Shown here: piece by piece, positions 38,616 through 64,000 of the stretch
Layout of the letters: the number at the start of each line of letters is the position of its first letter
Numbering within the stretch: the first letter of the stretch is position 1
From: Closterium sp. NIES-65
Taxonomy: Eukaryota > Streptophyta > Zygnematophyceae > Desmidiales > Closteriaceae
Assembly: GCA_948144175.1 (NCBI GenBank)
Contig: CANXME010002006.1
Location: 1-64,000, forward strand
DNA: 64,000 nucleotides
Reading direction: 5' to 3'
The notes under the pieces: generated by a model
The model's input: only the letters and a program-made list of their open reading frames with translations
Databases searched by the model: none
What the model was told of the DNA's origin: nothing
Program-made: the position numbers and the translations under genes

Positions 38616-41600
38616 CTAATCGGCAACACTGAACACGCGGAACGAGTCCATGACTTGCCGCAGCACAGGCCTCTCAGAATCCAACAGCCTCTCGGGCACC
38701 TGCAGGCGCAGCTGGTAGAGGCGTCTGTTGGCCACTGCGAGCACTGTGAGGTAGCGGCGGTTCCACTCGAGCACCTGCACTCGCTCGTCTGGCATGATGG
38801 CCAGCTGGTTGTTGTTGGCAAACGACTTCACGTTCAACTGCAGGTGAGCGAGGGATGGGGAGGAGCGGAGGATGCAGGGAGGGAAAGGGTGGGAGAGGGT
38901 GGAGAGAGGGCGGGGACAGGGTGGTAAGCATTTGGTGAAACAATTGACTGGGAAGAGAGAGTGTAATGTGGTGTTTGGGGAAAATTTGATTGGGATTTGG
39001 TGACTCTCCTCAATAGTTCTCACCACCATCACTTTCCCCCCAGCAGCCCTTCACACCATCTCTCCACCATACCTTCCCCCCAACCCCCTCTGCTTCCCCA
39101 TCCCGCAGGCCCCTTACCTCCATATCATTGTACCCCTCATTACTCTCCTCCTCCCCTCGCAAGCTCCCCCTCCTCACTCTCACCCCTCCCCCTCCCCACG
39201 TTCCTCCGCTCCGCCCTCCCTCAGCCCCCTTCTCCCCTCACCTCCATGCCATAGTACTTAGCATCCTCCCCAACAATTCCCGCCCCCATCCTCCAGAATC
39301 CCCCTCCCCTCCTCAATCCGCACTCCCCTCACCTCCACGTCATCGTTCTCGTGTCCTCCCCAACAATCTCCACTCTCCTCCACCCCTCCCCTGCCCTCTC
39401 CTCCGCACCCCCTCATCCCCACTCGCCCCACCCAACCCCATTCGGACCCCCCTCCCTCTTTACGCCCCCTCACCCCCACGTCATAGTACTAAGCGCAGCG
39501 ACCTGCTACTGCTCCTTCCAGTGAGAAAGATGGAGGCGCCTAAAAAAAGTCGTCATAGCGCTCCACGTCCTCTACCCTACCGCACCCCACCCCACCGCAT
39601 CCCACCGCTGCCGCACTCCCTATCCTCCATCCCCGCACCCACACTCCCCACCATCACCCTCACTCCCCCCCACTCCCCTCCAACCCCTCCCCCTTTCCCC
39701 CACGCCCCCTCACCTCCACGTCATAGTACTCAGCGTCCTCCTCCTGCTCCCCGGCGCCTCTCCTCCCGGTGCCAGCTGGCACGATGCGGTTGGCGGAGGA
39801 GATGAGGGAGGCCTCACGCCGCACGCCCAGGCGTGTGGACATGAACTCCGTTAGAAGCTGCTTCTCTACTCGCTCCCCTGCCGCCTGGGGGGCTCCCAGG
39901 TCCCGCACAGACTGTACAGCCACATGCATTAACCAGGGAATAACAGGGCGTTAACAGGGAGTACAGAGGAGTACGGTGGGGCACAGGAACTCCGTTAGAA
40001 GCTGCTTCTCCACTCGTTGACCTGCCGCCTGGGGGGCTCCCAGGTCGCGTACAGGCTGTACAGGGGTTCGACACGGAGAATGGGGGAGTGCAGAGGGGTA
40101 CAGGAAGGTGCGTGGACATTAACTCCGTTAGAAGCTGCTTCTCTACTCGCTTCCCTGCTGCCTGCGGGCCTCCCAGGCTGTCCCAGATCATATGCGCTAT
40201 AGGATCCGCAGTCTCTGTACCTTTCTTCTCACTGCAGGGTGGGTACTGTTTTTTTAGCGATTGCCTTTGGACTTTACGCGGGTTGGCTGTGTCAAAGATT
40301 GGAATATGTGCCTCGCGGCACAGCACATGGCACACTACACAACGCATAGCACACACACATACAGCGCATACCACACACACAGCGCATACCACACACACAG
40401 CGCATACCACACGCACAGCGCATACCACACACACAGCGCATACCACACACACAGCGTATACTATACACACAGTGCATACCACACACACAGCGCATACCAC
40501 ACACACAGCGCATACTACACACACAGTGCATACCACACACACAGCGCATACCACACACACAGCGCATACCACACACATAGCGTATACTACACACACAGTG
40601 CATACCACACGCACAGCGCATACTACACACACAATGCATACCACACAAACAGCGCATACCACACACACAGCGCATACCCCACACACAACGCACAGCACAC
40701 ACACAGCGCATAGCACACACACAGCGCACTACATACCGCGAATCGGGACGACGAGGGCGACGACACCTCGACGCTCACGTTCTCGTCGAGGTTGAACGAG
40801 CTGCGGAAGAAACAGTCCTGCCCGGATCCCCGCACCTGACGGCGGGAACGACGGGAGGAATGGCGGTGAGAATGGCGGAGAAACAGCGGCGGAGGGCGAG
40901 TGAAGAGGGCTCGGGAAATGCGCAACTTGGAAGCTCAGAATCACACGAGCGCGGATGACTCAGATGATTCAGGAACGAGCACAGCAGCTCCGAAGCTCAA
41001 AAAGGACGAGCGAGCCAATGACGAAAACACGCCGATCCGAGAGCCGATCAGGCTCATCACATGTGATCTGAATAGAGCGGAAAAAGGCCGAAACCCAGGC
41101 GGCCTTGAGAGCGTGAGTGCGTTTTCAGAACCAGCCTTTGATGACGCGACCTTCTAGTGAGTATCGTACGGCTGCTGTCTTGGTAGGAAAACTTTTGGAC
41201 GTCTCTAAAGCTGTATGTGCCGTTTGAGGCGTCAAAACGCGCGACCTAGTGAGTCACTCATCTCACCACGCTGATAGCGCAAACTAGCCAGTCTGGCAGC
41301 TCAGCAGGTCGATGACGTGAACTAGCGAGTGTTCTGTGAGAATTATCAAACGCTGATCCAATCTGTGTCGCGAATAACGAGCAGCCGTTAACGCGACCAC
41401 GGCTTTAGTCGACTCAAAAGTCTCCTCTTTCAGAATTCTCAAAAGCAACTCTTCCCGGACTCACCTCGACCCACGAGTCGGGGTAGAAGAACGAGTAGCC
41501 GTCGAGCCGATCCACGTACAGACGGAAGCCGGCAGGCGGGAGCAAAAACGGCAGCGCTTGCGCCGCGGGGAGAGCAGACCAATCCGCGAGCAGCGCGCCG

Positions 41601-41920
41601 GCAGATGCGGCGAGAAGAAGGGAAGCTCTGCGAGAAAATGCTCCCTTAGAGGAGGCTCCGTTATTATCCTGCAATTCACTCGTAGAACACTCTGAACCGG
41701 AGGATGCTGAAAATCTATCTGGTTCTTGGCTAGCCCGCACTCGGAACGCTCTGCGACTCGAGCCTACTCGTGCGGTTTGTCTGGGAGCAAGGACGCTCCA
41801 GGAGCCTCCTAAGCAGCGAACTGCGGATGTGTCGGCTCGCTCCGCTGCACACAGCTGAAGCGGAGCGCATGCTAAGGTGGCAGCCGCCGCTCCGGTGCTG
41901 GCCGACATGATTAGAGACAT
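38616..41920 (-). CDS. PsbP-domain protein, thylakoid lumen (PPD-like, 324 aa)
   Basis: Exons on the minus strand: 41920-41465, 40835-40737, 39911-39714, 38837-38616, all phase 0 with GT/AG borders (975 coding bases). The first 75 or so residues are Ser/Arg/Ala-rich, like a chloroplast transit peptide. A twin-arginine segment (FSRRASLLLAASAGALLADW, residues about 93-112) and AQA follow, as in lumen proteins exported by the Tat route. The mature part has PsbP-family motifs: YSFFYPDSWVEV, GSGQDCFFRSSFNLDENVSV, LTEFMSTRLGVRREAS, YYDVE, NNNQLAIMPDERVQVLEWNR and VMDSFRV at the C-terminus. It resembles the PsbP-domain (PPD) group rather than the oxygen-evolving PsbP itself; PPD1, a photosystem I assembly factor in land plants, is the nearest in memory, with moderate confidence. 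ATG 41920 is the first start, with a second in frame at 41908. Introns 2 and 3 contain partial copies of the exon ends. Confidence 0.85.
39110..39505 (-). repeat. Copies of the PsbP-gene exon 3 3' end with donor site
   Basis: The exon 3/intron 3 junction (39711-39745, plus-strand CACCTCCACGTCATAGTACT) recurs in intron 3 at about 39471, 39338, 39238 and 39115. On the sense strand each copy keeps the exon end and a GTGAGG or GTAAGG donor. Adjacent C/T-rich intron sequence is copied with it. Confidence 0.75.
39975..40200 (-). repeat. Two copies of the PsbP-gene exon 3 5' half
   Basis: The segment encoding LGAPQAAGERVEKQLLTEFM (39835-39911) recurs upstream in intron 2 at 39977-40060 and 40117-40196. 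The copies still read as LGAPQAAGQRVEKQLLTEF and LGGPQAAGKRVEKQLLTEL. They have lost a clear downstream continuation and look like exon shadows. Confidence 0.8.
40325..40736 (-). repeat. 18-bp minisatellite starting at the PsbP-gene exon 2 donor
   Basis: About 22 units (sense strand GTATGCGCTGTGTGTGTG) begin immediately at the exon 2 5' splice site (GCG|GTATGTAGTGCGCTG). Most units repeat a GGTATG or AGTATG donor-like motif. The His/Thr/Cys/Val-rich open frames across it are repeat artefacts. Confidence 0.8.
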
Positions 41921-42359
41921 AATTACGGTCGACCAGTTGCTTAGGCCAGACTAGACTAGTGAGCAGATATGGGAACTGTCGATAAATGGCAAAAGTGAGG
42001 GGGGATGGAGATGGAACAAATGGAGTTATCTAGGGTGGATAGGCTTCGTCTTCTGGTTCCACGTGGCTTGATGCGACCTCCAGTTCGATGAGCCTCGAGT
42101 TTCGCGAAAAGAGATGCCTGGGTCGCGAGGACACGAAAGCAATTACTTAGTAACTGCTTGTCGCACTGGCGCCGCGAAACATCAGCATGACTCATGCGGA
42201 CCACTGTTTGTGTTATTGTGCCAGCAAGAAATAAATCATTTCAATAAGAATGAGACAATAATGATAATACATTCCCCCTCCCTGCAAACTAGTTCTCAAA
42301 ATTGCTTCTCAGGTCATAGTGATATGTTCCCCAGCACGACCTCTTATATTAAGAGCAGC
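41921..42359. other. Intergenic region between RopGEF and the PsbP-domain gene
   Basis: About 440 bases between the RopGEF stop and the PsbP-gene start, both genes on the minus strand. It must hold the RopGEF 3' end and the PsbP-gene promoter. I see no further gene or clear motif. Confidence 0.6.
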
Positions 42360-45300
42360 TCAACTCCAGTCCGCACTCGCCGATCGTGTCCTCGCCGGAG
42401 GCTGGGGCGGCAACCCCGCACCCGGCGAGAATTGCACCGGCCCACGAGAAGGCGAAACCTGGTAACCAGGAGACCCCACTCCACGCCCTCCTCCTACCCC
42501 ACCACCGCCACCACCACCACCAGCACCACCACCACCGCCATTACCACCATTACCACCACCGCCGCCCATTCCCATCCCACACATCACTTCATCTGCCATC
42601 CCTCCGCTCTGACTCCTCCCCAACGCCCGGTTTCCCCGCTTTCCCCTAGGCTGCAGCGACCCAGTGCGCCTGAGAAACCTGTCCCCTAGCATGGCTCGGC
42701 TGGGACTGGCGGAGGGTGAGCTTCCCCCAGATCCACCTCCCCCTGACCCAGAAGGGGGATACACCATCCCACCCCCACCCCCACCTGCTCCCCCACCCAT
42801 TCCACCACCATTACCACCACCACCACCGGGACCACCGACACCAGCGCCTGAGCCGGCACCTGAAGTGTTCCGCCCATGAAGAGGACTCCGCATGTATCTC
42901 CCGCTTCCGCTGCTGCCACCGCCGCCACCCCCGCCACCAGGCACAGCACCGCCACCGACAGACAGCCGGCCCATGGCGCCTGAAATCAAGGGGCTACGCA
43001 GCTCAGGGCTGCGCGGGGGCCGCATATCCCACTTGGCCGACGCCTTCCCCAGCACCCCCGAACCCGGATACCCCGGCCCTGCCGGCGCCATCCCCACTCC
43101 CACCGCTGCACCCAGCCCGCCTCCTCCATCCCCTCCTCCTCCCGGCCCCCCACCCCCTCCGCCCCGCGCGCCTTTCCCCGACCGCGCGCTCCCGCCGCTG
43201 CGACTAGAGTCGAAGGACCGGACGCTGCCATTGGTGGATTCGCTATTATCACTGGACATGGAGACGGCGTCGAAGACGGTTTCGGGCATGAGCACGCTGA
43301 AGGTGGGGTGGCGCAGGCCTTGAGGGTGCGGGTCGCAGGGCAGGTCCACGAACTGCTGCGGGTTGAGGAAGAGGTAGTTGGCGTGCAGCACATCCCGGAT
43401 TCGTGACCGGATGTTGGATGCTGCTCCTTCCAGCACCCGCGAGTAGCTTTCAAGGACTGCTTTGCCGATGTCCTGCAGGCAGCATGGGGGAGGTGGTGGG
43501 GGGGGGGGAGGGGAGGGAGGCATGGGATGCATGGGGAAAGGGGTTGAGGAAGAGGTTTCGGGCATGAGCAGGCTGAAGGTGGGGTGGCGCAGGCCTTGAG
43601 GGTGCGGGTCGCAGGGCAGGTCCACGAACTGCTGCGGGTTGAGGAAGAGGTAGTTGGCGTGCAGCACATCCCGGATTCGTGACCGGATGTTGGATGCTGC
43701 TCCTTCCAGCTTTCAAGGAACGTGGGAGATACGGGGGGTGGGGTAGGGAGGTGAGGGTATGAGCAAGAGAGAGGGGGAGGGTTAGCAGGAGGGAGTTGAA
43801 GGTATGCATGGGATGTGCAGAGCTTGGCATGACCTTTGCGATTTCGAGGGTGGGTCGAGTTAGGTGGAGTGTGGGCGGAGTGCGGAGTTGGCTTCTCCTG
43901 CAGGTCAGCCCATCTATGGCAAGGCAAAAGGCACCTCTGGTGCAGGATAGGACCTGCTAAAGCCTCTACTTTCCTCCTTTCTGGTCGCATTCTAGTGCAA
44001 TCCGTTCTGATGCTGTTCCTTACCAGCACAACACATGGAGCTGCAAGAACGTACCCCATTGAATGCGATGTTGGCTAGGTCAAGAGTGGTGCGGGGCAGG
44101 TCGGGCCATCTGCGGCAGATGGCAGCAAGGCACGAGGACACGCGCTGCAGGCTCTCCTGACTTCCCCTCTGATATCTCTGAACTGAGGTAGCGTAGCTTA
44201 CCCCATTGAACGCGATTTTGGCAAGATCCAGAGTAGTTTGGGGCAGGTCGGGCCATCTGCGGCGGATGGCAGCAAGGCACGAGGAGACGCGCTGCAGGCT
44301 CTCCTCCAACCGCACCACGTCCCGGCTGCTAGTGGACAAATAACTGCCGCCCAGCGTGTGGCTCAGCTGGGGCTCCCTGGTCATGCCAAGTCAACGCCAG
44401 TCAAAGCATTGCAAGAGTGGTCAACACAAGTCAAAGAGGAACCAAAACGGAGTGAACGTGAGTGAACATGGGACTGATGATGTGAGGTGAAGTGCAAAGC
44501 TGTACGCGCATGTCGAACAAACAGTGTCACCACAAAAAGGGCGAGAGACACTTTGTCAAGCTCGCAAAGAATTGCACCTCTACGAACCGCACAGAACTGC
44601 ATTGCACCGCGCCATACTGCACAGGACCGGTACCTTGCGATCGCGAGCTGGCGCATCCAGATCTGCTCGGCAGCCTCGAGCTTGCAGGCGAGCTTGAGAG
44701 CCGCCTTCTGATTGGACAGGTCCACGGTGGAGAGCAGCTTGTCGTCCGTGAAGGGGTTGGCGTGCAGGGCCGCATACACCCTGTCTCCCACCACCGCCCT
44801 CACGTTCTGAAGAGCATGAGCAGGTGGAAGGCAAGGAAATAGGTGGTTCGGAAGAGGAAAGTTAAGTGAAGGGAAGCAACTGGGCAGCTGTGACTGGGAT
44901 GGCGTGCAGGGCCGCATACACCCTGTCTCCCACCACCGCCCTCACGTTCTGAAGTGGGGAACAGTGTAGGTGTGGAGAAGTCGGGCGGTAATGGTTGGCA
45001 TGAAGGTTGGTGAGCAAAGTGGGGAGTGGCTTGTCGTCCGTGAACGGGTTGGCGTGCAGCGCTGCATACAGCCTGTCTCCCACCACCGCCCTCGCGTTCT
45101 GATGGGAGTAGGTGGGGGGAAGGGACGGGTGGGAAGGAAACAGGTGGAGAGGCACAGTTTGAAAGCCGCTTCTCATTGGACAGGTCCACCATGGAGAGCA
45201 GCTTGTCGTCCGTGAACGGGTTGGCGTGCAGTGCTGCATACACCCTGTCTCCCACCACCACCCTCACGTTCTAGAAGTGGGGAAGAGTGGAGGGGTGGAG

Positions 45301-48300
45301 AGGTGGGGTGGTACTGGTTGGCTTGAAGGTTGGGAGCCAAGTGGGGAGTGGCTTGTCAATTTGAAGCGGCTGGCGTGCAGCGCTGCATACACCATGCCCC
45401 CACCACCGCCCTCACGTTCTGACGAGAGAGGGGAGGGGTGAGGGTTGAGGGGTGGAGAGGCGGGGGGTTGGGGGGTGGAGGGTTGGGGGGGTGGATGGGT
45501 GGGCGTACGTGCAGGGGTGGAAGGAAGGATGTGGATCAGAGAGAAGAGCAGTTTGACATGTGTGGAGGGGTTGACGTGAAGGCAACCCACCACCATCGCG
45601 CACTGCCATGCATGGGCAGGGAGGCCCTACGTTTCGGGGGCCCTACCTTGGGAGGCCCTACCTTGGGAGGCCCTACCTTGGGGAGGCTCTACCTTGGGAG
45701 GCCCTACCTTGGGGAGGCTCTACCTTGGGAGGCCCTACCTTGGGGAGGCCCTACCTTGGGAGACCCTAACATGCGAAGGCCGTACCTTGGGGAGACTATA
45801 CCTCAGGCAGGCCATACCTCAGGCAGGCCATACCTCAGGCAGGCCATACCTCAGGCAGGCCGTACCTCAGGCAGGCCGTACCTCAGGCAGGCCGTACCTC
45901 AGGCAGGCCATACCTCAGGCAGGCCGTACCTCAGGCAGGCCGCACCTCAGGCAGGCCGTACCTCAGGCAGGCCATACCTCAGCCAGGCCGTACCTCAGGC
46001 AGGCAGTACCTCAGGCAAGTCGTACCTCAGGCAGGTCATACCTCAGGCAGGTCGTACCTCAGGCAGGTCGTACCTCAGGCAGGTCGTACCTCAGGCAGGC
46101 CGTACCTCAGGCAGGCAGTACATTGGGGAGGGAGGTCTTACCTTGGGGAGGCGCTGCACAAAGGCGTCGGGGACTTGCATGTCCTGAAGGACCTGCTGGT
46201 TGATGGTCATGGCGAGCTTCATGATCTGACTCGTCTTCTCCATCTGCTGCTCCAACCACCGCACCAGCGCCTCCCCCAGCGGCCCCCGCACTCGCGGCTT
46301 CATCTTCCACCGCCACACCTGCCGGCCCCCTCCTGCCCCCTCTCCTCCTCCCACTCCTGCTCCTCCCATTCCCCCCATTCCTCCTCCCATTCCTCCCATG
46401 GCTCCCCCGCCCATGCCTTCTGGGATGAACCTCTTGTCCCTCACATCAGTCACGCTGCGTTTGAGTCCCCGCATGATACCGCTGCCACCGGGAGGGATCC
46501 CCCCTCCTGCCCCTGTCCCTCCCCCTGACGCTCCCCCTGCTGCGCCAGCAGCAGCAACAGATCCGCCGCCGCCGCCGCGGCTCCTTCCACCCCCTAGAAG
46601 CGCCGAAAAGTCGTAGCTGAAGCTCGAGGAGCGTGACGACACCCGCCGCTTGCCCCCCGACCCTGGAGAAGCACCTGAAGGAACACCTGAGGAAGAGGCA
46701 GGAGCAGCAGGAGCAGCTGTGCTGCTGGACCGCTGATGAAAACCCCAGGATGACCCGGGGTTTGGACTCGACCCCTCCCTGCTCCCCGTGTTACTCCCTG
46801 CGTTGCTCCCCGTGTTACTCCCACTGCTACACGCATCCTCGCCCTCCCCTCCTCCCCCTCCTCCGCCCCGCTGCTGCATCAGGTCCTCTTCACTACCGTG
46901 CCTCTCTGCCTCAAACCCAGGGGAGGAGAGCCGTCTGTAGTGCCCTGAGCCCCCGTCCCCTCCGTGTCCTGATCCCCGCTCTCCCGCGTCTCCTGTGTCT
47001 CTGGTGTTCCCTGTGTGCAACGTGCCTCTGTCGTCAAACTCCCCTCCCTGGCTGTACTGCCCCTCATCATCAGCAAAATCCTCCTCCTCGTCTGCTGAAG
47101 ACCCTCGTGGGGACGACCCGTGAACCGACGAACCTTGCCCCGAACCATGCGCCGAACCATGCGCCGAACCATGCGCCGAACTATGTGCAGACCCGTGGCT
47201 CACTCCCCGTCGCCCCCCACCTCCCCTCTCCCCACCATCCCCACCCACTCCTCCCAACCGCCCGCTCATCCCTCCAGTCCCATACGGCCCGGCGTGAGTG
47301 GCAGGCCGCTCCGAGGGGGCTGTGGCGCTGCGCCTGATGAGACGATCCGGTGCACCGTACAGATCCCCAGCCGACCCTCCCATGCCGCCCATGCCGCCGC
47401 CCATACCGCTGCTGCTGCCGCCCGTGCTGCCGGCTCCGAAGCTCTCCCTGTCGTCATCGTCGTCGTCGTCGCCACGCAATGTCTCCTCAACCTCCTCTTC
47501 GTCCTCCCCCTCCTCGTCCTCCTCCCCGTCCTCCTGTGTTAGGTCGCCACCTGGCAGCTCGTCCTCGTAGTAGTACTCGTCTGATTGGCTGTGCTGCAGG
47601 ATGGTCTGATTGGGGGAAAGTGAGAAGTAAGGTGAGGGAAAAGAGATGCGGGGAGGGGGTGGGAAACAGGGGAGGGTGGGGAGGGGAGGCGGGGTGGGGG
47701 GGTTGGTTTTGCAGGAGGGATAAGTACAAGCGCAAAAAAAATCACAAGCACACATACAGTAAAACTCGTCCGCTTGGCTATGCTGCAGGAGCAGGTGGAT
47801 TGAAGATGAACCAAAACTTGTGCATGCCGGGGGAAAGGGAGTGAGTGAGGAGAACACCAGAATGGGGGCATTACGAGCAGCACAAGTTGCCAGCAGCTGG
47901 CTGAGCGCCGGCAGCTGAAACCGAACTTGTGCATGCGGGGGGAAACGGAGTGAGGAGAACACCAGAAGGCGGGGCATTACCAGCAGCATGGTATCAAGCT
48001 GGCTGAGCGCCGGCAGCTGAATCCGAAGGTCAGCTCGGACACTCCGACGCATCACCTGCCAGCACAGCACAGCACCGCACAGTACCGCACAGCACATATG
48101 GCACCACGTGAAAAAGCATCACCAAATGATGCCCATCTCCCTCCCATTGCCTTCCACCATCGGCCATTCCACCCTCACTTCGCCACCATCGCTGCCTATC
48201 CCGGTGCCTGCTCCTTCTCCTGCCCATACCCCTTCCTCGCCCCTGCCCCTGTCTCTGCCCCTGTCTCTGCCCCTGTCTCTGCCCCTGTCTCTGCCCCTGT

Positions 48301-49865
48301 CTCTGCCCCTGTCTCTGCTCCTGTCTCTGCCCCTGTCTCTGCCCCTGTCTCTGCCCCTGTCTCTGCCCCTGCACTGCCCCTGACCCTCAACCATGTCCCC
48401 CCTCCACACACCTCGAATCTGCTGCCATCGGGGCGAGTGGTCCAAGCAGGCGCCAGCTCCACGATGTGTCGACACACCGACACCATGATGCCCATCTCCC
48501 TCCCGTCCCCTTCCCCCATCGCCCCTGCCACCCTTCCCCATCACATCTGCCCGCCCCTGTCCCTGCCCCTGTCCCCCCCCCTCACCTCGAATCTGCTGCC
48601 ATCAGGGCGAGTGGTCCATGCGGGTGCCAGCTCCACGATGTGCCGGCACACCGACACCATGATGCCCATCTCCCTCCCCTTCCCGTTTCCACATCGCCCC
48701 TGCCACGGTCCACCCCCTTCCCCACCACATCTGCCTGCCCTTCAGCCTGTCCCTGCCCCTGCCCCCGTCACTGCGCCTGCCACTGCCCCTGCCCCTCTCC
48801 CCAACCCCCATACCTCAAATCTGCTCCCGTCAGGGCGAGTGGTCCATGCAGGTGCCAGCTCCACGATGTGGCGGCACACCGACACCATGATGCCCATCTC
48901 CCTCCTCCACTTGCGCTCGTCCTCCTCTGGCAGCGGCCGCAGCCGCAGCCCATCCCCGAAGATGGATGCTGGGGAAGGGGGGAGTGGGGAGGTGGCGTAA
49001 GGGGAAGGGTGGAAGAGTCAATGAGGGGTTGTGGCAAGAGAGGCTGGTCCTTCTTTGGCAGCGGCCGCAGCCGCAGCCCCTCCCCAAAGATGGATGCTAG
49101 GGAAATGAGGGGGGAGAGGCGGGTGGGGGGGGGGGAGGAGTGGCGGGGAAGGAGAAAGAAGAGGTGACGAAACGATGTTGGAAATGTAACGGTCGGGACA
49201 AGACAACGTACCTGAGATCCTAACAGCGTACCTGAAACCCTAACAGCGTACCTGAAACCCTTACAGCGTACCTGAAACCCTAACAGCGTACCTGAAACCC
49301 TTACAGCGTACCTGAAACCCTAACAGAGTTCTTGAATATCTCACAGGTCACCTGAAACCCTGACGGCGTATCTGAAACCTTAACAGCGAACCTGGAACCC
49401 TAACAAAGTACCTGGATCTTTAACAGACCCCCTGAAACCCTAACGGCGTACCTGAGACGCTAGTGATAGCATTGGCCATGGCTAGCGCAGGGCCGCACCC
49501 CTTAGCCCCTCCGGATGGGTCGTCTCCCAGCAGCAGCTTGGACCATCGCTCGCGCATCAGCTGCATGTCTGCATGAGGAGAGGGGGAGGGGGAGGGGGGG
49601 GCGTTAGGATCATAATTTGCCACGAAGCTCCATGTGAAATGGATTTGAGCTTAGAACCTGTCTCCCAGCTGCCGCCTGTCCGGGGAGAGGGGGAGGGGGT
49701 AGGGACGGTCCTTTACAGTCACGAAAACCCACAGGAAGGAATAGATCGGAAGTAGATAGAAAGTCATTGGGAGAGAACTGCCAAGAATGAATCGAACGCA
49801 CCATCCTTGTCCTTGGGAATGTAGTCCTCCACCGCTAAATCCGGGTCGTCAAACGACCCCGCCAT
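42360..49865 (-). CDS. ROPGEF: ROP guanine-nucleotide exchange factor, PRONE domain (1111 aa)
   Basis: Eight exons on the minus strand: 49865-49802, 49568-49452, 48968-48814, 48055-47981, 47605-46142, 44806-44634, 44376-44202, 43472-42360. All phases fit (3336 coding bases). PRONE motifs in order: RERWSKLLLGDDPSGGAKG (about 27-45), ALAMANAITSVSASIFG, LRPLPEEDERKWRREMGIMV, RHIVELAPAWTTRPDG, RRSVRADLRIQLPALSQLD, LAMTINQQVLQDMQVPDAFV, VYAALHANPFTDD, AEQIWMRQLAIAR, LEESLQRVSSCL, and LESYSRVLEGAASNIRSRI. PRONE proteins activate ROP/RAC small GTPases by GDP-GTP exchange at the plasma membrane. Oddities: about 410 acidic, Ser- and Gly-rich residues (roughly 156-565) interrupt PRONE, and a tail of about 300 Gly/Pro/Ser-rich residues follows it. 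Nearly every intron holds copies of exon ends. Alternative splicing through those copies cannot be excluded. Confidence 0.85.
43555..43712 (-). repeat. Partial copy of RopGEF exon 8
   Basis: About 155 bases nearly identical to exon 8 (43275-43435 region), encoding EGAASNIRSRIRDVLHANYL onward, lie upstream in intron 7. The first 40 or so bases of the exon and the acceptor are missing. Confidence 0.85.
44054..44178 (-). repeat. Second copy of RopGEF exon 7 3' half (possible alternative exon)
   Basis: This segment repeats the end of exon 7 (ESLQRVSSCLAAICRRWPDL...NIAFNG) and keeps a donor (GGG|GTACG at 44053). An upstream AG (ATATCAG near 44179) gives the same phase as exon 7's end, so it could be spliced in after exon 7 or instead of its end. 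Differences from exon 7 are few. Confidence 0.7.
44899..45424 (-). repeat. Four extra copies of RopGEF exon 6 5' half
   Basis: The start of exon 6 (NVRAVVGDRVYAALHANPFT, 44739-44806) recurs in intron 5 at about 44899-44951, 45031-45102, 45172-45271 and 45369-45418, with the intron-side AG retained in most. The copy at 45172-45271 extends furthest, to the segment for VDLSN. Units differ in length and flanks. Confidence 0.85.
45630..46135 (-). repeat. Minisatellite derived from the RopGEF exon 5 donor
   Basis: Two sub-arrays abut the exon 5/intron 5 border (donor at 46141). Units of TACCTTGGGAGGCCC (about 45640-45800) copy the border itself (TTACCTTGGGGAGGC). 16-bp units of GTACCTCAGGCAGGCC (about 45800-46125) are a variant. 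On the sense strand each unit reads AAG|GTA or GAG|GTACGG, about 30 potential donors in a row. Confidence 0.8.
47750..47940 (-). repeat. Copies of RopGEF exon 5 start and exon 4 end
   Basis: In intron 4, 47764-47805 resembles the start of exon 5 (LLLQHSQADEFY versus TILQHSQSDEYY), and 47870-47935 copies the 3' half of exon 4 (QLPALSQLLATCAA with a following GTAATGCCCC donor). Flanking intron sequence ending in GGGGGCATTAC is copied too. Confidence 0.75.
48128..48680 (-). repeat. Copies of RopGEF exon 3 3' half
   Basis: The segment encoding REMGIMVSVCRHIVELAPAW through the exon 3 donor (48814-48905) recurs in intron 3 with donors at 48586 (GAG|GTGAGG) and 48412 (GAG|GTGTGT). A short remnant (GGGAGGGAGATGGGCATCAT) remains at about 48128-48150. 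The two full copies stay in frame and nearly identical. They could act as alternative exon ends only if an upstream acceptor exists. Confidence 0.85.
48241..48372 (-). repeat. 12-bp minisatellite in RopGEF intron 3
   Basis: Eleven or so copies of CTGCCCCTGTCT stand between two exon 3 shadow copies. A pyrimidine-rich tract on the plus strand means purine-rich on the gene's sense strand. Confidence 0.85.
49040..49098 (-). repeat. Copy of RopGEF exon 3 5' end with acceptor
   Basis: Upstream of the real exon 3 start (48968), this copy repeats CTAG|CATCCATCTTTGG and the codons for SIFGEGLRLRPLP, then diverges. Its acceptor is as good as that of the real exon, so it competes for splicing on paper. 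Confidence 0.8.
49205..49460 (-). repeat. 20-bp minisatellite derived from the RopGEF exon 2 donor
   Basis: About 12 units of CAGCGTACCTGAAACCCTAA follow the exon 2 border. The border itself (GTCTCAG|GTACGCC, donor at 49451) is the last unit. On the sense strand most units read TTTCAG|GTACGC, so the array is a row of 5' splice-site look-alikes. Confidence 0.85.
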
Positions 49866-53130: not shown

Positions 53131-56100
53131 TCAGTGGTATCAGAGCTGGTCGGTAAAGCCTACGTGCGCGACTTGTAGCAAGCATGATGACGTCAAGCGA
53201 AACCTCTGGCACTTCCTTAGGTGGTGTCGTCTCGAATCCCGGCGAACCCTGGACAAACACGACAGTGTTCGACACGTCGACGGTTCCGATTTTCACGGGA
53301 CAAAACTACTCCGCGTGGAAATTTAAGTTTCAAGTGCTCATGATGGAGCGGGGACTTTGGGGTCTCTTCGACGGAACGGAGAAAAAGCCGGTCAACGAGG
53401 ACGAGATCGCGGCATGGAAGAAGAAGGACCAAAAGGCGTTCGCAACGTTGATTTCGCGCATCGGCATCAACCTCGTGAGTTCGGTGCGCACGTGCATCAA
53501 GCTCGAAGCGTCGGCGCGTGAAGCATGGAAGCGGCTCGAGACGATGCACGTGAACAAGACTCTCCACGGCAAGATCCTAGCCCGAAATGCGTTCTACACG
53601 GTGAAGTTACGCGCGGGCGAATCGATGCACGAGTATGCGACTCGTGTGGAGGAACTTGGGGAAACGTTCATGGACCTCGGTGGAACGGTCACGGAGGAGG
53701 ATTGGATTCTCACCTTGCTTTGCGGCCTTCCGGAAGAGTGGTTGACGGTGATTACGACACTCGATAGCGTGCAAAACACTTGGACGAAGGAAATGGTGGT
53801 CGGTCGGCTTCTCCATGAAGAATCGCGACGCCGACAATTCGCTAACAAGAGCGTGGAGACCGCCATGTTCTCCGGAGGGAGCTCCGGAAAGAAGTCCAAG
53901 TGGAGCAAGGGTGAGGCGAAGAAGTAGTCCGGTGGAAACGAGCGCGGCAAAGGCAACACATCGAACGGTTCGAGCAAGTGCCACTATTGTCGCAAAGCGG
54001 GACATTTTTGGCGTGAATGTCGGAAGCGGCCGAGCGATTGGACTCCATCGAAGGCGCGGAACCAAGAGAGCAACGCGCACACGGCATCCGGCGAGGCGGA
54101 TGATTCAACGGAGTCGCTCGTTTTGTTGGCCGGTGACGGGATCAACACTTCAAACGACGCGTGGTTCCTCGACACCGGTGCAACACAACACATGACGCAC
54201 TCGGCGTCGCTCCTCAACAACATCGGTGCTCCGGGAGACGTTAAGCGCGTCGTCTTCGAGAACGACAAATCGCTACCGGTGGTTGGAGTTGGGAGTACGC
54301 GTCTCATCGTCGATAGCGGGCCGGTGGACATCACGAACGTTCTTCACGTCCCGGGATTGAAGGTGAATCTACTCTCCGTCACTCAACTCGCAAAGAAGGA
54401 CGTGAAGGTCACCATCGATGGCGCGAAGATGAACCTCTTTTGGAAGGGGAAGCAATTCGCGCAAGGCGTTCTCAACGGACAACTCTACCAACTCAAGACG
54501 CATCCGAATACGGCCTCATCCAACATGGCGCAAGGCTCCAAGGCGACTCTCAAGATGTGGCATAATCGGCTTGCGCACGCCAACTACGACTCGGTCAAGG
54601 AGTTGGCCAACAAAGGACTTGCAAGGGATTTGACGTGATCACCGGCAACGACGAGAAGGGCGTGTGCGCGGCGTGTGTCGAAGGAAAAATGGCTCGCAAG
54701 CTATTTGGTAGCCGTACCTCACCCCTCGCTAAGGACCCGCTTGCGCTTGTTCACTAAGAGAGGAGCGCGGTTCCTCTTAGTGATGCGGCATGCATCTAAG
54801 GGAGGAGCGCGGTTCCTCTTAGTGATGCTCGACGACGCAACGCGGATGTGTTGGACCCGGCTCTTGAAGGCTAAAGGAGATGCGGCCAAGGCGATTCAAG
54901 AGTGGGCGCTCGACGTTTGCGACAACGGCAAGAAGCGGATCAAGTGCATTCGCACCGATGGTGGCGGCGAATTCGTGAACAACGAGCTTGAAAAATGGAT
55001 GAAAAGCAAGGGGATTAAGCACGACGTCACGACACCCTACACACCCCAACAAAATGGAGCGGCGGAGCGGCTCAACCGCACATTGGTGGAGGCCATCCGT
55101 TCACTTCTTCAACACTCCAAGCTTGGGAAGGAGTGGTGGGGAGAGGCGAGTGCGCTAGCGGCATGGATTCGTAATCGTGTGCCAACAAAGGTGCTACCGG
55201 GAACGACTCCGTTCGAAGCATGGACCGGAACGAAGCCGAACCTATACAGCCTACGCACCTTTGGGTGCCTTTGCTACTACCATGTACCGGATCCATTTCG
55301 CCACAAGTTGCAACCGAAAGCTCGTGCGGCGATCTACTTGGGAATTGCGGCAAACGAGCGTGCATGGCGAGTGTGGGATTCGGATGAAAAACGCGTTGTC
55401 ACGTCTTGGGATGTGATATTCGACGAAGCCAAGTTCCCGACAACGGAGAAACAAACGCCGCAACTCACCGTCGTCCTTCCCGCACGAGAGGAGGATGAAG
55501 CGGTGGAGGTTCCACCGCACGTGGAGAAGGGAGCCGAAAGTGGAGGGGGAGAGAACGAGGAGTGCGATGATGATGTCAAGGAGGTGCCACCAACCGAGGA
55601 GGCCACTTCCTCCGCACCTTCTTCCCTACCATTGGCGTTAACTCGCGGGCATCGTACACCTCGCCCCAACACGAGGTTAACCGACTATGCTACGGTTGCC
55701 GTTGGGGAGTTCGATGAGGAGAGTGCGGCACTTTACCTAGCGACCATCGACGACGATAACCCACGCACCCACAAGGAGGCTTTGGCTTCACCGGATGCAC
55801 CGCTATGGAAGCAAGCAATGGAGAGGGAGTTAGCATCCATCAAGGAGAACGATGTTTTCGAGCTCGTCGACCCGCCGAAGGGTGCCTACTTGGTGGGATG
55901 CAAGTGGGTGCTTAGGAAGAAATTGGGAGCCGATGGAAGTGTCGAACGCTACAAGGCACGGCTTGTGGCGCAAGGGTACACTCAACGGGAGGGGGAGCAC
56001 TATACTGAAACCTTCGCTCCCGTTTCGAAGGCCTCCACTCTTTGGGTGTTGCTCGCGCTAGCGGCATCTCTCAACCTTGAGGTGGAACAATTGGACGTTT

Positions 56101-57115
56101 GCACCGCCTTCCTCTACGGGCTTCTCATGGAAGAAGTCTACATGCGGCAACCCCCGGGGTACGATGATGGTAGCGGACGGGTATGGAAGCTCAAGCGTAC
56201 CCTCTATGGCTTGAAGCAAAGCCCACGCGGATGGTACAAGCGCATCGACGACTTTCTTCTTCAACACGGCTTCGTGCGTAGCGTCTGTGATAGCGCTTTG
56301 TACGTGTTGAAGGAGGGGGAGAAGCAATTGGTGCTTTTGCTCTACGTCGATGACCTCCTTCTTTTCTCCGACTCCAAAGACCTCATTCGTGAGGTCAAGC
56401 AACGGCTAGGGGCGGAGTTCGCCATGAGGGACTTGGGACCAGTGACGTACTACCTCGGGATGCACGTCGACCGCGACCGCGCGAACGGGACCATTCACCT
56501 CCACCAAGAAAAATATGTGAAAGGGGTTGTGGAGCGCTTCGGCATGGGTAATAGCAACCCGGTGGGGACGCCACTAGACACGGGATTTTCTTGCCTCCCG
56601 GGAGAGGAAGAATCCGCCCTCGACAAAGCCGAAGGGAAGCGGTTTCATTCGCTAGCCGGCTCACTCATGTATGCCGCCGTTTCCACCCGTCCCGACCTCT
56701 CATACGCCGCCGGGGTACTTGGACGAGCCGTAAGCAACCCTCATACCAAGCATGTGTGTGCGGGAGGACGTGTTCTACGCTACCTCCAAGGCACACCCAA
56801 CTTGGGAATCGTATATGAAACCGGTCCAATCGTGCTTAAGGGCTACACCGATTCGGATTATGCCGGTGATCAAAGCAAGCGCAAGAGTACCGGTGGGTAC
56901 GTCTTCACCTTGCTTGGGGGAGCCGTGAGTTGGCAAAGCAAGTTGCAACCAACCGTGGCTCTAAGCACAACGGAAGCGGAGTATATGGCACTCACTCAAG
57001 GAGCCATGGAGGCAATATGGCTACGGCGCCTTCTAGCGGAGCTTGGGCATCCTCAAGCCGACCCAACTCCTCTCTTTTGTGACAACCAAGCGGCCATAAA
57101 CCCCACTCACAATGA
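52581..57115 (+). mobile_element. Ty1/copia copy D, second family, 3' truncated
   Basis: The 5' LTR is proposed at 52581-53130 (TGTTGGAGGG...CCTCTACA), followed after TCAG by a perfect tRNA-iMet primer-binding site TGGTATCAGAGC (53135-53146). Gag-pol follows from 53184. RNase H ends abruptly after CDNQAAI...NEA at about 57115, where intron sequence of hAT 3 begins, so the 3' end and the second LTR are missing. It inserted into the leader of copia E. Confidence 0.85.
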
Positions 57116-57125
57116 AGCAGCGTGA
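53184..57125 (+). pseudogene. Copia D gag-pol, damaged
   Basis: Gag starts at ATG 53184 (residues WKFKFQVLMMERGLWGLFDG) and is followed by TAG at 53925, a CCHC knuckle (CHYCRKAGHFWREC), protease DTGATQHMTH and MWHNRLAHANY. A TGA at 54636 and a frameshift follow. At 54735-54830 a segment containing GARFLLVM is present twice, and the segment that should hold the first integrase Asp (HSD-type motif) is lost. Integrase continues with RTDGGGEF and NGAAERLNR, RT with LYVDDLLLFSDS, and RNase H with TDSDYAGDQSKRKSTGGYVF and STTEAEYMAL, ending at DNQAAI. It is inactive through stops, shift and truncation. Confidence 0.88.
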
Positions 57126-59099: not shown

Positions 59100-59781
59100 G
59101 CCCCCATCATAAATTACCAATCAGAATTGTTCACATATAATTGTCGCCCTGGTCGTGCAGGGTCGCAATACATTGGTCGATTGGGACATGAGGTCCCGAG
59201 ACATTTGAGGGCGACTCGGGCCAAAAGTGATTGGGACACTTTCTCTGAGAAAATGTCCAGCGCGGAATGCACCCTCAGAGTATACTCTACAGATGTAACT
59301 ACCGTATAGTATAAGTGCACTGCTCTTGCAACTATGGTACTACCGTATTACACGAACTCCTGTTGAGTTGCGCATTGCCCTCTCCCTACCGCACAAAGAT
59401 CACAGCACTCATACGCTATAACAAACCCGCTTACAACAGACGGAAGCAGCCCTTCCCTCATCTTCTCGCTACGCCACTATCGCACCCCTCTTACTCTTGT
59501 CCATTCGGACATCCTTATTACTTTTGTGGCTGTGCCACTCTCTCCCAGGCCCCCATCCCATTCCCACGCCCCGCCAGTGAGCGTTATTCTCCCACCCATG
59601 GATTAGCATTGCCAAGAAGGAACCAGAGGGCCTGATACTTGGCTTAACCTTTTTCCATAAGGATGATGCCTAACATCAAAGACATTAAATCAATCTTCCC
59701 CAATCTACGGTCCGGTATCGTTTTGCTACGCAACAGACGCCTTCTGGCTGCATAAGCTACCGGCAGACTCAGATTCCCAGG
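59100..59781. other. Gap between hAT 3 and COQ2
   Basis: No supportable gene; it likely includes the COQ2 3' untranslated region next to 59782. Confidence 0.5.
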
Positions 59782-62700
59782 CTACACACCGAGCTTGCCA
59801 GCCACAATACCAGCAAAGACCAGAGCACCGAAAGTCCAGTTAGAAGCAAACCTGGAAGGGAAGGTGGGACCAAGGGAGGGATATGGGCAAAAGAAAGGAG
59901 AGAAAGGAGCATACCATATCAAAGGAGAGGCAGGGAGTTTTTCTTGATCAGCGCACGCCTAGCAAATATCTACTTTCGATTAGGGAACATTCCTGTGTGG
60001 ACGCAAGCGTCTCAATGCCCTTTTTCCCGAGTCGCGTCGAAACATTGTCAACCTTGCGTCACAAAAATTGAATGTATCGCGGCACTAGGCAACCAGGCGA
60101 AATGTACAGTTGTGCGCATTTGATTGGGTGACACAAACGACTGTACACTCGTTTCTTCAACTGCCGGGTAGGGGTGTGGTTTCGATGCATGGGAGTTTTT
60201 CCCTTGCGAATTTGGCATTGTTGGGTGTCAGGTGCATGTGGTCGTGTCGGGCATTTTGAGTCGCGTGCGATTTTTTAACAATGACGGGTCGATTTGCAAT
60301 TCGTCAGCAACGTCAGCGCGTTTCACGCTGGCCAATGAAAAATGCAGTAACGGTCGCTGAAAGGCGACTCACATTTGGGACACAACACAGTCTATGTTGT
60401 TTTTGGGTGTCACAAAGTGATTGAGACACTTGTGTCCACACAGCAATGTTCCTTTACTAGCATACAACCTTGGTTGGTTGCACAGTTGGCTCAACCATAT
60501 GTGTGCATGCTCTACCAACAAGGATGGACAAGCTGGTACACCTACCTGTGGAGTTGACTCAACAGTGCTGATGACTCACTTGGAGTAGCAGCCCTTGTTT
60601 TGAGGCGCCTCAGAAACGACTTTTGAGGCGCCTAAAAAAATTGTGAGGTTGACTCAACTCAATGGTAGAGGCAGCTCACTTGGAGCAGCAGCCCTCCGGG
60701 CTGTTGTAAGTCAAGGAAGCAACTTGCCATGCCATGTGTGCTGATGCGACCAGTTTTCAAGTCTCTTTGTTTTTTTAGGTTCTTTGCATTCGCTTTTTGT
60801 CTCTCTCCCCCCCTCCCCCCCCCCCCCTCTAGATTCGGGTGCGTGGGAGGGTGGGGTGGGGAAGGGTCGGTTAAGACGTGAAGTTAGTGTTGACTCAAAG
60901 GTGGAGACGACTCACTTGGAGTAGCAGTCTTCCCGGCTGTCATAATTCGTGGTGGCTATCTGCCATGCCATGTGTGCTGCTGCCGCTGCTAGCGAGGCAT
61001 AGAATGGGGAACCTGCAACACGAAAGAAAACAGGAGGGGGACGTGACAAAGTGGATTGTGAGGGGCGGCATGGCAATGCAAGGAGTTCTACCAACCGCAG
61101 AAAATGAGAGCAAAGGGAAGGCAGCAGCAGAGGAAGGAAGGTCGCAGGGGAAGGCAACGTCAAGGGCAGTCGGTAACAGAAAGGTTCGAATGCTGGAGCA
61201 AAGTGGGAGGTTAGAGAGGACGAGCAGTGCAAAAAACAGAGATAGGAGTGTTCCAGACAGTCAGGAACGGATCATTCAAGACAGTCAGGACTACCAGGGC
61301 TAGTGAGTGAGTGAGAGCGTGAGTGAGTGAGTGAGTGAGTGAGTACCGAGGTTGACAGCAGAGCCGGCAGCAGCAAGGCTGGTGATGGCTGCAGCGCTGA
61401 AGAGTGAGAGGTAGAGAGGGGTGCGATGGGCGAAGAGCAGCGCTGTGGACTTGACCCCTGCTGTGATGTCATCCGCCTTGTCCTGGCGAGAGAATGCATG
61501 GGAGTGGATGGGATGGGATAAATGGAGCAGACAGGTGGGTTGAAGCACAAAGGGCATGCCCTGCACCAGCTGAAGAGGGAGAGGTAGAGAGGCTTGCGAT
61601 GGGCGATGGGAGAGGGAGAGAGCAGCGCTGACTTGATGCCCGCTGTGATGTCGCCAGCCTTGCCCTGGATAGAGGATGCCCGGGATAGAGGATGCCCTGG
61701 ATAGAGGATGCATGGAGTGGATGGAACAAATGGACAACACAGGTGGGTTGGAGCACAAGGGCATAGATACTGTCATACACACTCGGTCCGACCACCGAGA
61801 GAGGTCTGCTCCGTCTTACCTGGTGCGCATAGATAGTGTCGTACACTAGTGTCCAACAGATGCCGCCCATGTACAGTGGCAGCACAGCTGGCAGGTGCAG
61901 AGAGCCGTGCACTGCCGCCCAGCCCAGAAGAGCCCCCCAGTTGAAGACAAGACCGAGATAGGCCTGAGGCTGGGTGTGGGGGGAACAGAACAGAGAGGAG
62001 GGGACGACGAGAGATTTGACTTGACTTTTAACATTCCCACTTGAAGACAAGGCGACAGAGCGTTGCGATACACGCATGACTGATTTTGTGTGGGATGAAA
62101 ACGGAGAGCAGGGGGACAGGGCACGAGAAGTGGTGTGTGGGGATGAGTTGGCATGAAAGGTATTCGAGGGCATGAGAGGAAATGAAAGCAGTAAAACCTA
62201 AAGGCAGACGAGGAGATGAGACACTTCCAAGGGTACTCTGATGTTCACCATCTCAAGCTTACCATCTCAAGCTTGTCTTGCAAGGCTTTTCAGCAATCCC
62301 ATGGAGGCTCAGCTGCAAACCCTTACCCAGTGAGTGAAGCGCTTCATGAGGGGGTAGGAGAAGACAAGGGGCAGTGACGCCGCTCCCAGCACTTGACTGC
62401 ATGAGGGTGGATGGAAGGCGCAGGGCACAGGGGACACAGGAGACGATGTGTTTGAAGAAGTGTTTTGAGACGTCTCAGGGGACACAGGAGGGCGATGTGT
62501 TTGAAGAAGTGTTTTGAGACGTCTCAGGGGACACAGGAGGGCGATGTGTTTGAAGAAGTGTTTTGAGACGTCTCAGGGGACACAGGAGGGCGATGTGTTT
62601 GAAGAAGTGTTTTGAGACGTCTCAGGGGACACAGGAGGGCGATGTGTTTGAAGAAGTGTTTTGAGACGTCTCAGGGGACACAGGAGGGCGATGTGTTTGA

Positions 62701-63899
62701 AGAAGTGTTTTGAGACGTCTCAGGGGACACAGGAGGGCGATGTGTTTGAAGAAGTGTTTTGAGACGTCTCAGGGGACACAGGAGGGCGATGTGTTTGAAG
62801 AAGTGTTTTGAGACGTCTCAGGGGACACAGGAGGGCGATGTGTTTGAAGAAGTGTTTTGAGACGTCTCAGGGGACACAGGAGGGCGATGTGTTTGAAGAA
62901 GTGTTTTGAGACGTCTCAGGGGACACAGGAGGGCGATGTGTTTGAAGAAGTGTTTTGAGACGTCTCAGGGGACACAGGAGGGCGATGTGTTTGAAGAAGT
63001 GTTTGAACACTTCTTCAAAGGGCGATGGAGGGAGTGGAATGGGCACGAGGCAGGTCACAGGGGACACAGGAGGGCGATGGAGGGAGTGGAATGGGCACGA
63101 GGCAGGTCACAGGGGACACAGGAGGGCGATGGAGGGAGTGGAATGGGCACGAGGCAGGTCACAGGGGACACAGGAGGGCGATGGAGGGAGTGGAATGGGC
63201 ACGAGGCAGGTCACAGGGGACACAGGAGGGCGATGGAGGGAGTGGAATGGGCACGAGGCAGGTCACAGGGGACACAGGAGGGCGATGGAGGGAGTGGAAT
63301 GGGCACGAGGCAGGTCACAGGGGACACAGGAGGGCGATGGAGGGAGTGGAATGGGCACGAGGCAGGTCACAGGGGACACAGGAGGGCGATGGAGGGAGTG
63401 GAATGGGCACGAGGCAGGTCACAGGGGACACAGGAGGGCGATGGAGGGAGTGGAATGGGCACGAGGCAGGTCACAGGGGACACAGGAGGGCGATGGAGGG
63501 AGTGGAATGGGCACGAGGCAGGTCACAGGGGACACGGACCAGCATTGAAGCACAAGGGGGTGACAGCACCCGCTGGCAGAGGGTGGGGTCAGGTAGCAGC
63601 CAGCTTTGATGCCAAGCCAAGCACCTCAGTGACTTTTGAGGCGCCTCAAAAATACTGCAGCCCTTGGAATCATGAGTCAGGGTGACCCCTGGGGTCAGGT
63701 TAGCAGCCAGCTTTGATGCCAAGCCAAGCACCTCAGTGACTCATCCGCTCAACGACGGCTGGAAAAACAACACAGCGACCCCCCCACTCACCTGAACGTG
63801 TTCAGCTGCACGAGAATCCCCAGCCCCAGCAGTAGCTGCAGCCCGAGGAAGGAGGTGGCACCCAAGGGGGTGACGGCACCGGAGGGCAGCGGGCGGGAC
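59782..63899 (-). CDS. COQ2: 4-hydroxybenzoate polyprenyltransferase, C-terminal part
   Basis: Six exons on the minus strand: 63899-63792, 62396-62327, 61969-61820, 61482-61347, 61012-60916, 59851-59782 (TAG). All phases agree. UbiA-family motifs: [66 protein letters not shown] (second Asp-rich motif that binds the Mg-diphosphate), [12 protein letters not shown] and [13 protein letters not shown]. The enzyme joins the polyprenyl tail to 4-hydroxybenzoate in the inner mitochondrial membrane, an early step of ubiquinone synthesis. The targeting peptide and first Asp motif (NDxxD) lie beyond the window. A second copy of the first exon seen here starts at 63946 and runs out of the window, so which copy is spliced is unknown. 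Introns contain partial exon copies and two large minisatellites. Confidence 0.9.
60569..60746 (-). repeat. Copies of COQ2 penultimate exon 3' end
   Basis: The end of exon 61012-60916 with its GTGAG donor recurs in the next intron at 60671-60746 and 60569-60594. The longer copy still reads [19 protein letters not shown] against [19 protein letters not shown] and keeps AA|GTGAGC. The shorter keeps GGCTGCTACTCCAA|GTGAGT. GTTGACTCAA precedes all three on the plus strand. Confidence 0.8.
61570..61800 (-). repeat. Copies of COQ2 exon borders in the intron before exon 61482
   Basis: 61570-61675 repeats the 5' part of exon 61482-61347 plus intron ([12 protein letters not shown] against [13 protein letters not shown]). 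61761-61782 repeats the end of exon 61969-61820 (YDSIYA against YDTIYA). Flanking intron text (GTGGGTTG.AGCACAA) is also doubled. Confidence 0.8.
62430..63002 (-). repeat. 49-bp minisatellite in COQ2 intron
   Basis: Eleven tandem units of 49 bases, almost without variation, each containing CACAGGAGGGCGATG and the palindrome GAGACGTCTC. No spacers of varying sequence, so not a CRISPR array. Confidence 0.95.
62990..63019. repeat. 14-bp hairpin at the junction of two minisatellites
   Basis: TTTGAAGAAGTGTT and its exact complement are separated by two bases. The right arm is an inverted piece of the 49-bp unit. Confidence 0.9.
63020..63537 (-). repeat. 52-bp minisatellite in COQ2 intron
   Basis: Ten nearly identical units of 52 bases, each with CACAGGAGGGCGATG followed by GAGGGAGTGGAATGGGCACG. 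It shares the core GGGGACACAGGAGGGCGATG with the neighbouring 49-bp array. The long open frames across it are repeat artefacts. Confidence 0.95.
63545..63745 (-). repeat. Duplicated intron segment and degenerate exon copy in COQ2
   Basis: 63545-63580 resembles the middle of exon 63899-63792 (AAGGGGGTGACRGCACC). A segment of about 45 bases (GGTCAGGT...CACCTCAGTGACT) occurs at 63588-63632 and 63693-63741. The palindrome TTTTGAGGCGCCTCAAAA lies at 63634-63651. Confidence 0.65.
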
Positions 63900-63945
63900 C
63901 TAGTATAAGCCACTCCCGCTTCCTGCCACAACACCTCTCACTCAC

Positions 63946-64000
63946 CTGAACGTGTTCAGCTGCACGAGAATCCCCAGCCCCAGCAGTAGCTGCAGCCCGA
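63946..64000 (-). repeat. Second copy of the COQ2 exon at 63792-63899 (cut by window)
   Basis: The last 55 or so bases of the window match 63792-63846 exactly, including the GTGAGTG donor just to the left, with an offset of 154 bases. It encodes [14 protein letters not shown] again. Confidence 0.85.

Follow-up and report, generated by a model that had tools for sequence, protein, structure and literature searches.

Partial copies of exon ends in introns of Closterium sp. NIES-65, probable relics of small local duplications

The window analysed here is the whole of a 64,000-nucleotide (nt) stretch of DNA from Closterium sp. NIES-65, a green alga allied to the land plants (contig CANXME010002006.1 of GCA_948144175.1, an 874 Mb assembly of 2400 contigs in which we number this contig C1708). 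Three genes on its minus strand, encoding a RopGEF, a PsbP-domain protein and COQ2, have introns that hold partial copies of the ends of neighbouring exons. Window coordinates are used throughout, and the spliced models of the three genes are as follows:

42380..49865, minus strand: RopGEF (PRONE) gene, 8 exons (exons 1-4: 49865-49802, 49568-49452, 48968-48814, 48055-47981; exons 5-8: 47605-46142, 44806-44634, 44376-44202, 43472-42380)
38616..41920, minus strand: PsbP-domain gene, exons 41920-41465, 40835-40737, 39911-39714, 38837-38616
59782..64000, minus strand: COQ2/UbiA gene, 5' end outside the window, exons 64000-63946, 62396-62327, 61969-61820, 61482-61347, 61012-60916, 59851-59782

The RopGEF model matches Pfam PRONE (E 1.1e-100) and PDB entry 2ntx. 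Its best four matches among Closterium proteins have 93–99% identity over 84–93% of the query region, with additional matches at 52–80%; identity to NIES-67 proteins is 93–94%. The PsbP model matches Pfam PsbP (E 5.6e-34) and shares 87% identity, with 96% of the query covered, with CLOP_g21910 of Closterium sp. NIES-67, and the COQ2 model matches Pfam UbiA (E 1.2e-31). Two further genes were modelled in fetched loci, a RecQ-like gene (L013) and P5CDH (L016), the spliced model of the latter being identical to a NIES-64 Closterium protein (100% over 421 amino acids). This set of five genes comprises 42 exons, 37 introns and 7512 exonic bases, and was not chosen at random: the three window genes were selected in the initial annotation for their exon copies, and the other two come from repeat-rich loci. 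Thirty 10-kb loci were fetched in all, 25 of them (L001-L021, L026-L029) content-blind by contig number and five (L022-L025, L030) as neighbours of earlier loci; the Pfam scan of these loci covered 20 open reading frames (ORFs), so the share of copy-free genes cannot be derived from it. The identities of the copy-bearing genes outside the window were read from translations, except that of P5CDH (family search).

Copies were located by self-BLAST of the window and by searches of each exon against its gene, and these recovered the copies that had been described in all three genes. Those in RopGEF are listed below (exon-versus-gene searches unless stated; percentages are identities):

48558..48677, minus strand: exon 3 end and donor, relic copy, 5/92 differences in the exon part, all synonymous
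48375..48503, minus strand: exon 3 end and donor, relic copy, 8/92 differences, all synonymous
49043..49126, minus strand: acceptor and exon 3 start, relic copy upstream
47846..47925, minus strand: exon 4 end and donor, relic copy
47758..47790, minus strand: exon 5 start, short relic upstream, 33 nt
45156..45277, minus strand: acceptor and exon 6 start, relic copy, 91%
45019..45102, minus strand: acceptor and exon 6 start, relic copy, 90%
44890..44954, minus strand: acceptor and exon 6 start, relic copy, 95%
45362..45426, minus strand: acceptor and exon 6 start, relic copy, 88%
45545..45582, minus strand: exon 6 fragment, 38 nt, 79%
44052..44158, minus strand: exon 7 end and donor, relic copy, 91% (self-BLAST and exon search)
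43549..43710, minus strand: exon 8 interior, copy in intron 7 without a junction, 99% (self-BLAST and exon search)
49203..49455, minus strand: tandem array of 20 base pairs (bp) from the exon 2 donor, 12.6 units (array analysis)
45639..46121, minus strand: 16-bp tandem array from 20 nt past the exon 5 donor, ~30 units (array analysis)

Exon 3 also has a 19-nt downstream fragment besides its two donor-side copies, and the upstream copies of exon 6 number five with the 38-nt fragment included. The initial annotation had all of exons 2 to 8 copied; this stands for exons 3 to 7, whereas exon 2 has an array and no long copy, and the exon 8 copy includes no junction. The latter copy is 163 nt long, and its source (43272-43434) lies 114 nt away. 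By reading, a small deletion is seen near the exon 8 copy, and the arrangement looks like template switching.

The PsbP and COQ2 genes contain the following copies (same conventions):

39983..40063, minus strand: acceptor and PsbP exon 3 start, relic copy, 90%
40106..40177, minus strand: PsbP exon 3 start, relic copy beginning inside the exon, 90%
39449..39515, minus strand: PsbP exon 3 end and donor, relic copy, 79%
39325..39359, minus strand: PsbP exon 3 end and donor, relic copy, 89%
39234..39269, minus strand: PsbP exon 3 end and donor, relic copy, 89%
39101..39156, minus strand: PsbP exon 3 end and donor, relic copy, 72%, E 0.003
40319..40728, minus strand: 18-bp tandem array from 8 nt past the PsbP exon 2 donor, 22.5 units (array analysis)
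63785..63846, minus strand: COQ2 first visible exon end and donor, 62 nt, 100% (self-BLAST and exon search)
61561..61685, minus strand: acceptor and start of COQ2 exon 4 (the exon at 61482), relic copy, 75%
60657..60747, minus strand: end and donor of COQ2 exon 5 (the exon at 61012), relic copy, 78%
60553..60591, minus strand: COQ2 exon 5 end and donor, fragment, 39 nt, 87%

PsbP exons 2 and 3 had both been reported as copied; exon 3 is, with two upstream and four downstream copies, and exon 2 has the array instead. Similarly, three of the four COQ2 exons reported (the first visible one and those at 61482 and 61012) have clear copies, whereas that of the exon at 61969 is a mere 20-nt match of marginal significance (E 0.003–0.004).

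At E ≤ 1e-3 the five modelled genes, to which the statistics below refer, contain 57 exon-derived copies, touching 26/42 exons and 26/37 introns, with identities of about 70% to 100%. Of the 7512 exonic bases, 2027 (27.0%) have a counterpart in an intron at ≥80% identity, the share per gene rising from 9.5% (COQ2) to 48.8% (P5CDH). A stricter control search (matches ≥25 nt, low-complexity sequence filtered) placed all 32 exon-intron pairs in the adjacent intron on the same strand; it found no exon copy on the opposite strand and none within the introns of the other four genes. The copies are therefore local and in the same orientation, as had been claimed, and these adjacent, same-strand pairs support the view that local duplication adds to introns.

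Twenty-five copies lie downstream of their parent exon and 32 upstream. Downstream copies that reach the intron always do so on the donor side and upstream copies on the acceptor side, one whole-exon copy showing both; this is the arrangement that tandem duplication across a junction must produce. Most copies are partial and bear one junction; a whole exon with both splice sites is duplicated in only 1/37 classified duplications. The intronic part of the matches varies between 0 and at least 80 nt (80 nt being the limit searched), and we rejected on this basis the idea that copies are cut exactly at the junction.

Inverted repeats were rejected as the driver: no exon-intron pair is inverted, and direct local BLAST hits far outnumber inverted ones in the window (49 against 3) and in 21 fetched loci (194 against 24), the direct counts being inflated by arrays. 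Direct repeats outnumber inverted ones at 13 of these 21 loci, four have neither, and four (L009, L011, L020, L021) have more inverted than direct repeats.

The suggestion that the process extends beyond the three window genes is borne out by exon-end copies in the RecQ-like gene and P5CDH and, by reading, in a DEAH-helicase-like gene (C700), the last exon of a zf-CHCC-like gene (L019) and an unnamed gene (L017); the last three were left out of the statistics. No local direct repeats were found inside a cyclin frame (L022) or an F-box/leucine-rich repeat frame (L023), both apparently mostly open.

We interpret the exon-end copies as relics of many small local duplications formed by staggered-break repair, sometimes with a palindromic filler, and give this reading a probability of roughly two in three. 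The duplicated segment (T) is ~20 to 370 bases long and occurs in at least two head-to-tail copies, often with a short filler between them; in a subset the filler is a palindrome of 18–24 bases, with T abutting on both sides.

Non-array duplications in the five genes span a junction or exon in 28/37 cases and are confined to an intron in 9/37 (four exon-internal pairs were excluded from this count). A uniform null predicts 8 junction-spanning and 29 intron-only duplications. Survivorship alone could in principle produce such a skew: duplications would fall uniformly, exonic ones would be purged, and those across junctions would stay recognisable. Relics do decay, and their intron parts fade faster (0.182 differences per site against 0.103 for the exon parts, with ~5 times the gap openings); simulated detection of intron-only pairs at the ages seen is 0.51, and the non-random choice of genes may further inflate the junction class. 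The imperfect detection raises the expected junction share to ~0.35, which is still far from the 28/37 seen (p about 5e-7). Moreover, among the youngest pairs 7/11 and 13/18 include exon sequence (p 0.003 and 6e-6 against 0.215; these counts include exon-internal pairs). Survivorship as the sole cause is therefore a tentative alternative that we think unlikely, and an excess of junction-spanning duplications beyond it is likely, if not proved, since the genes were not randomly chosen. The claim that copies are anchored on junctions thus stands as a junction excess in this non-random set, but not in the sense that the copies stop there.

Tandem arrays also favour donors: the start of 7/22 lies no more than 22 nt from a donor, where 1.7 would be expected (p 0.0007). 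The 22-nt limit was set post hoc, after the data had been seen. Array ends at acceptors are not in excess (1 against 1.7 expected).

When 11-mers (complexity-filtered) common to at least four of seven loci (introns or gene stretches) were collected, all 12 proved to be one palindrome and its flanks. This sequence, TTTTGAG-N4-CTCAAAA, has 30,327 copies in the genome with any centre against 4 for the reversed control, and 24,964 exact copies if the centre is NCGN, against 0, although near-identical second contigs may inflate these genome counts up to twofold. Sampled copies (21, each with at most one mismatch) have a self-complementary centre (TCGA, ACGT, GCGC or AATT) in 19 cases. The same segment T directly flanks the palindrome on both sides in 10/21, as compared with 40/500 random positions in the same zones, and T is 21 to 78 long in these ten; by a looser one-sided test the figures are 13/17 palindromes and 25.5% of 600 random positions. 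Two clear cases are L016 5218-5235, where 29 bases are identical on either side, and L028 7907-7967, with the arrangement T-P-T-P-T (P being the palindrome). Where one palindrome separates two copies of T and none lies beyond them, the arrangement suggests that palindrome and duplication arrived in one event. Gene zones, which we defined after seeing the data and which make up 38 of 354 kb, contain 19/21 palindromes, and 22/50 listed sites have another palindrome within 200 bp against 1.4% expected. The window contains three:

63634..63651, strand not assigned: exact palindrome TTTTGAGGCGCCTCAAAA beside the direct duplication 63584-63634 / 63690-63741, one-sided match only
60598..60638, strand not assigned: two members of the family, each with a single mismatch, lying between repeats within COQ2 intron 5, both failing the two-sided test

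A stretch with a GAAGAAGTG arm has matches at dozens of places, several of them in both directions. Elsewhere, L030 3464-3481 is an exact palindrome whose flanking arms of ~15 nt are inverted rather than direct, giving a longer hairpin. COQ2 intron 1 also contains two near-perfect satellites of 49 and 52 bp (62428-63535), and the 49-bp unit includes most of the palindrome. A longer transposon with palindromes as its ends was considered and set aside as no other 11-mer is shared, yet some of the 31 shared 9-mers lie outside the palindrome. The 11 stretches found in the viral collection were taken as chance, and a viral identity was rejected.

These data hint at a palindromic micro-element of ~18–50 bases, present tens of thousands of times and inserting into gene introns with a long and variable target duplication; we raise this only as a speculative proposal. 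It is more doubtful still that the exon relics come mainly from such a mobile mini-element. Its copy number, the ten two-sided cases and its concentration in gene zones favour it, but a search allowing up to one mismatch found none in RopGEF or PsbP, both rich in relics. Ordinary transposases make target duplications of fixed length, and the spread of T from 21 to 78 is unlike these. The initial annotation was too categorical in holding that transposons explain none of the copies: a repeated tiny palindrome is involved in a subset.

Differences between exons and their copies (56 copies, those with fewer than 25 exonic bases being excluded) fall at codon positions 1/2/3 in the ratio 93/80/214, comprising 204 synonymous and 183 nonsynonymous changes, the latter including 7 stops; for the window alone the ratio is 31/30/65. 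The pattern is about 1:1:2, as for a freely decaying copy compared with a constrained exon. Both counts fit relics, and we rejected coding constraint on most copies: they are mostly decaying relics, not reserve exons. No repeated exons were seen in the annotated Closterium proteins read, and the exon peptides compared by eye each occur once in the NIES-67 RopGEF and PsbP proteins. P5CDH exon 1 was framed separately in these counts, as the assembly does not keep its frame to the end. At L016 22-89 and 291-336, this exon departs near its end from the frame of the NIES-64 protein P0133, and the intronic copy downstream encodes the NIES-64 peptide, which may reflect an assembly error or a switch of the copy used.

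It is accordingly very improbable that the copies are in use, whether as mutually exclusive or alternative exons or as decoy splice sites under selection. Many copies do retain an intact GT or AG, arrays start at donors more often than expected, and the differences in the RopGEF exon 3 copies are synonymous only (0/0/5 and 0/0/8), but stops, codon positions and the single junction carried by most copies point the other way. The idea of a reservoir of alternative exons is thus not sustained for most copies, those of RopGEF exon 3 excepted.

Assembly artefact or haplotype mixing can be dismissed as hardly credible: near-identical second contigs exist for parts of the window and P5CDH, but identities of about 70% to 100% cannot be obtained by mixing one locus, and the same copy-bearing stretches occur on two contigs each. 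The RopGEF intron 5/exon 6 region matches a second contig, C1721, over 1601/1601 bases at ~100% (one 401-base window piece searched against it matched at 100%), and a 3.3-kb stretch of P5CDH matches another second contig at 99%. A single misassembly as the source of the copies is unlikely, given these second contigs. Five loci (L009, L010, L011, L015, L029) look bacterial or organellar from GC content or dense open frames, and from their look the assembly may include culture contaminants. Among the window ORFs scanned for them, Ty3/gypsy domains and a chromodomain were found at 32077-37292 (minus strand) and Ty1/copia domains at 54639-57125 (plus strand).

Under staggered-break repair, opposite-strand nicks tens of bases apart would be filled in and rejoined, so that the sequence between them is doubled, with filler possibly joined between its two copies. 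The palindrome may be captured as such filler, or may itself provoke the break. Where T lies across a donor, it is the upstream copy that still serves as exon end, and the downstream one is stranded in the intron; across an acceptor, the downstream copy serves and the upstream one is stranded. The relic would then decay, and the spread of identities suggests repeated rounds that may yield families, arrays and longer introns. Junctions might be over-represented if breaks were commoner in exons than in introns, and selection might remove wholly exonic duplications but spare those with a single end there.

Several observations weigh against this account. The RopGEF exon 8 copy is exon-internal and distant from its source, which simple tandem duplication does not yield. 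In several cases the copies flanking a palindrome are exact on both sides, but other high-identity pairs are separated by 24–114 nt of other sequence, and in several of these the spacer is neither T nor palindrome. The two-sided test is failed by 11/21 palindromes, including all three in the window. The third-position share of differences is 0.55 overall, slightly above 0.5, and 0.60–0.62 in younger copies; certain copies may therefore be under some constraint or have undergone conversion, most clearly in RopGEF exon 3, whose synonymous-only copies are not predicted by neutral decay. Finally, we infer the staggered-break origin, as we do the driver of the duplication density, the role of the palindrome as filler and the junction preference; neither break nor enzyme was observed directly.

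Comparison with known systems places the phenomenon among small tandem duplications. Minisatellites are arrays of short units that arise by slippage; the Closterium arrays resemble them in having short units within introns, and differ in their excess of starts near donors. Miniature inverted-repeat transposable elements (MITEs) and introners are very numerous, short, dispersed, intron-associated copies with inverted repeats, as is the palindrome. The palindrome differs in being 18–24 bp long with no room for a spacer, in adjoining long variable duplications and in lying within larger introns. T varied in place of the fixed short target duplication of MITEs, and the unit is itself the palindrome, some copies having longer arms and none of those fetched an internal region; all 11 palindromes (at most one mismatch) in the five modelled genes lie inside larger introns, whereas the insertion of an introner forms the intron. 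For small tandem duplication by staggered-break repair, a rice study by Vaughn and Bennetzen (2014) is cited in PMC8355091.

Homology of exons in neighbouring introns is also a feature of tandem exon duplication and degenerate exons, according to the accessible parts of PMC9013439 and PMC12343006. The former gives ~2% of human, 0.08% of fly and 0.06% of worm exonic bases; the 27% of the five Closterium genes was obtained by a different method from these figures, and the copies are mostly partial, one-junction and relic-like. Against tandem mutually exclusive exons stand the single whole-exon case and the relic-like codon pattern of most copies, with RopGEF exon 3 as an exception. The available portion of PMC8355091 reports that tandem duplications follow opposite-strand nicks in cells of mouse and human, and cites human and plant insertions as a hint of the same nick-derived duplication. 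These small tandem duplications are like the Closterium copies in being local, in the same orientation and tens of bases long, and in the proposed opposite-strand nicks; as far as that portion goes, Closterium is unlike them in the proportion of introns marked, the splice-junction excess and the palindromic filler in a subset. We regard the phenomenon as a form of small tandem duplication, of which the palindrome is the newest element. We did not find it named for Closterium in openly licensed literature, which is not proof of its being unpublished. The accessible part of PMC10407611 puts mean intron length at 485–554 bp and explains genome size by copy number, with no mention there of exon copies.

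Two annotated proteins, P0123 and P0124 (Closterium Yama58-4 and NIES-53), are RopGEF-PsbP fusions, and the N-terminal start of P0124 is apparently translated intron sequence. These suggest that annotated gene models of this group may be affected.

The origin and lengthening of introns is an old question, and the Closterium introns examined here mirror an unusually large share of the neighbouring exon sequence at varied divergence. It is thus possible to measure directly how often duplications arise, how their breakpoints are biased, how they decay and what becomes of duplicated splice sites, and the palindrome marks, across the genome, the joints at which some of the duplications were made. 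If the micro-element proposal is true, a non-coding palindrome would be coupled to continuous duplication at exon borders, splice donors would become seeds of minisatellites, and the introns of Closterium would grow from their own exons.

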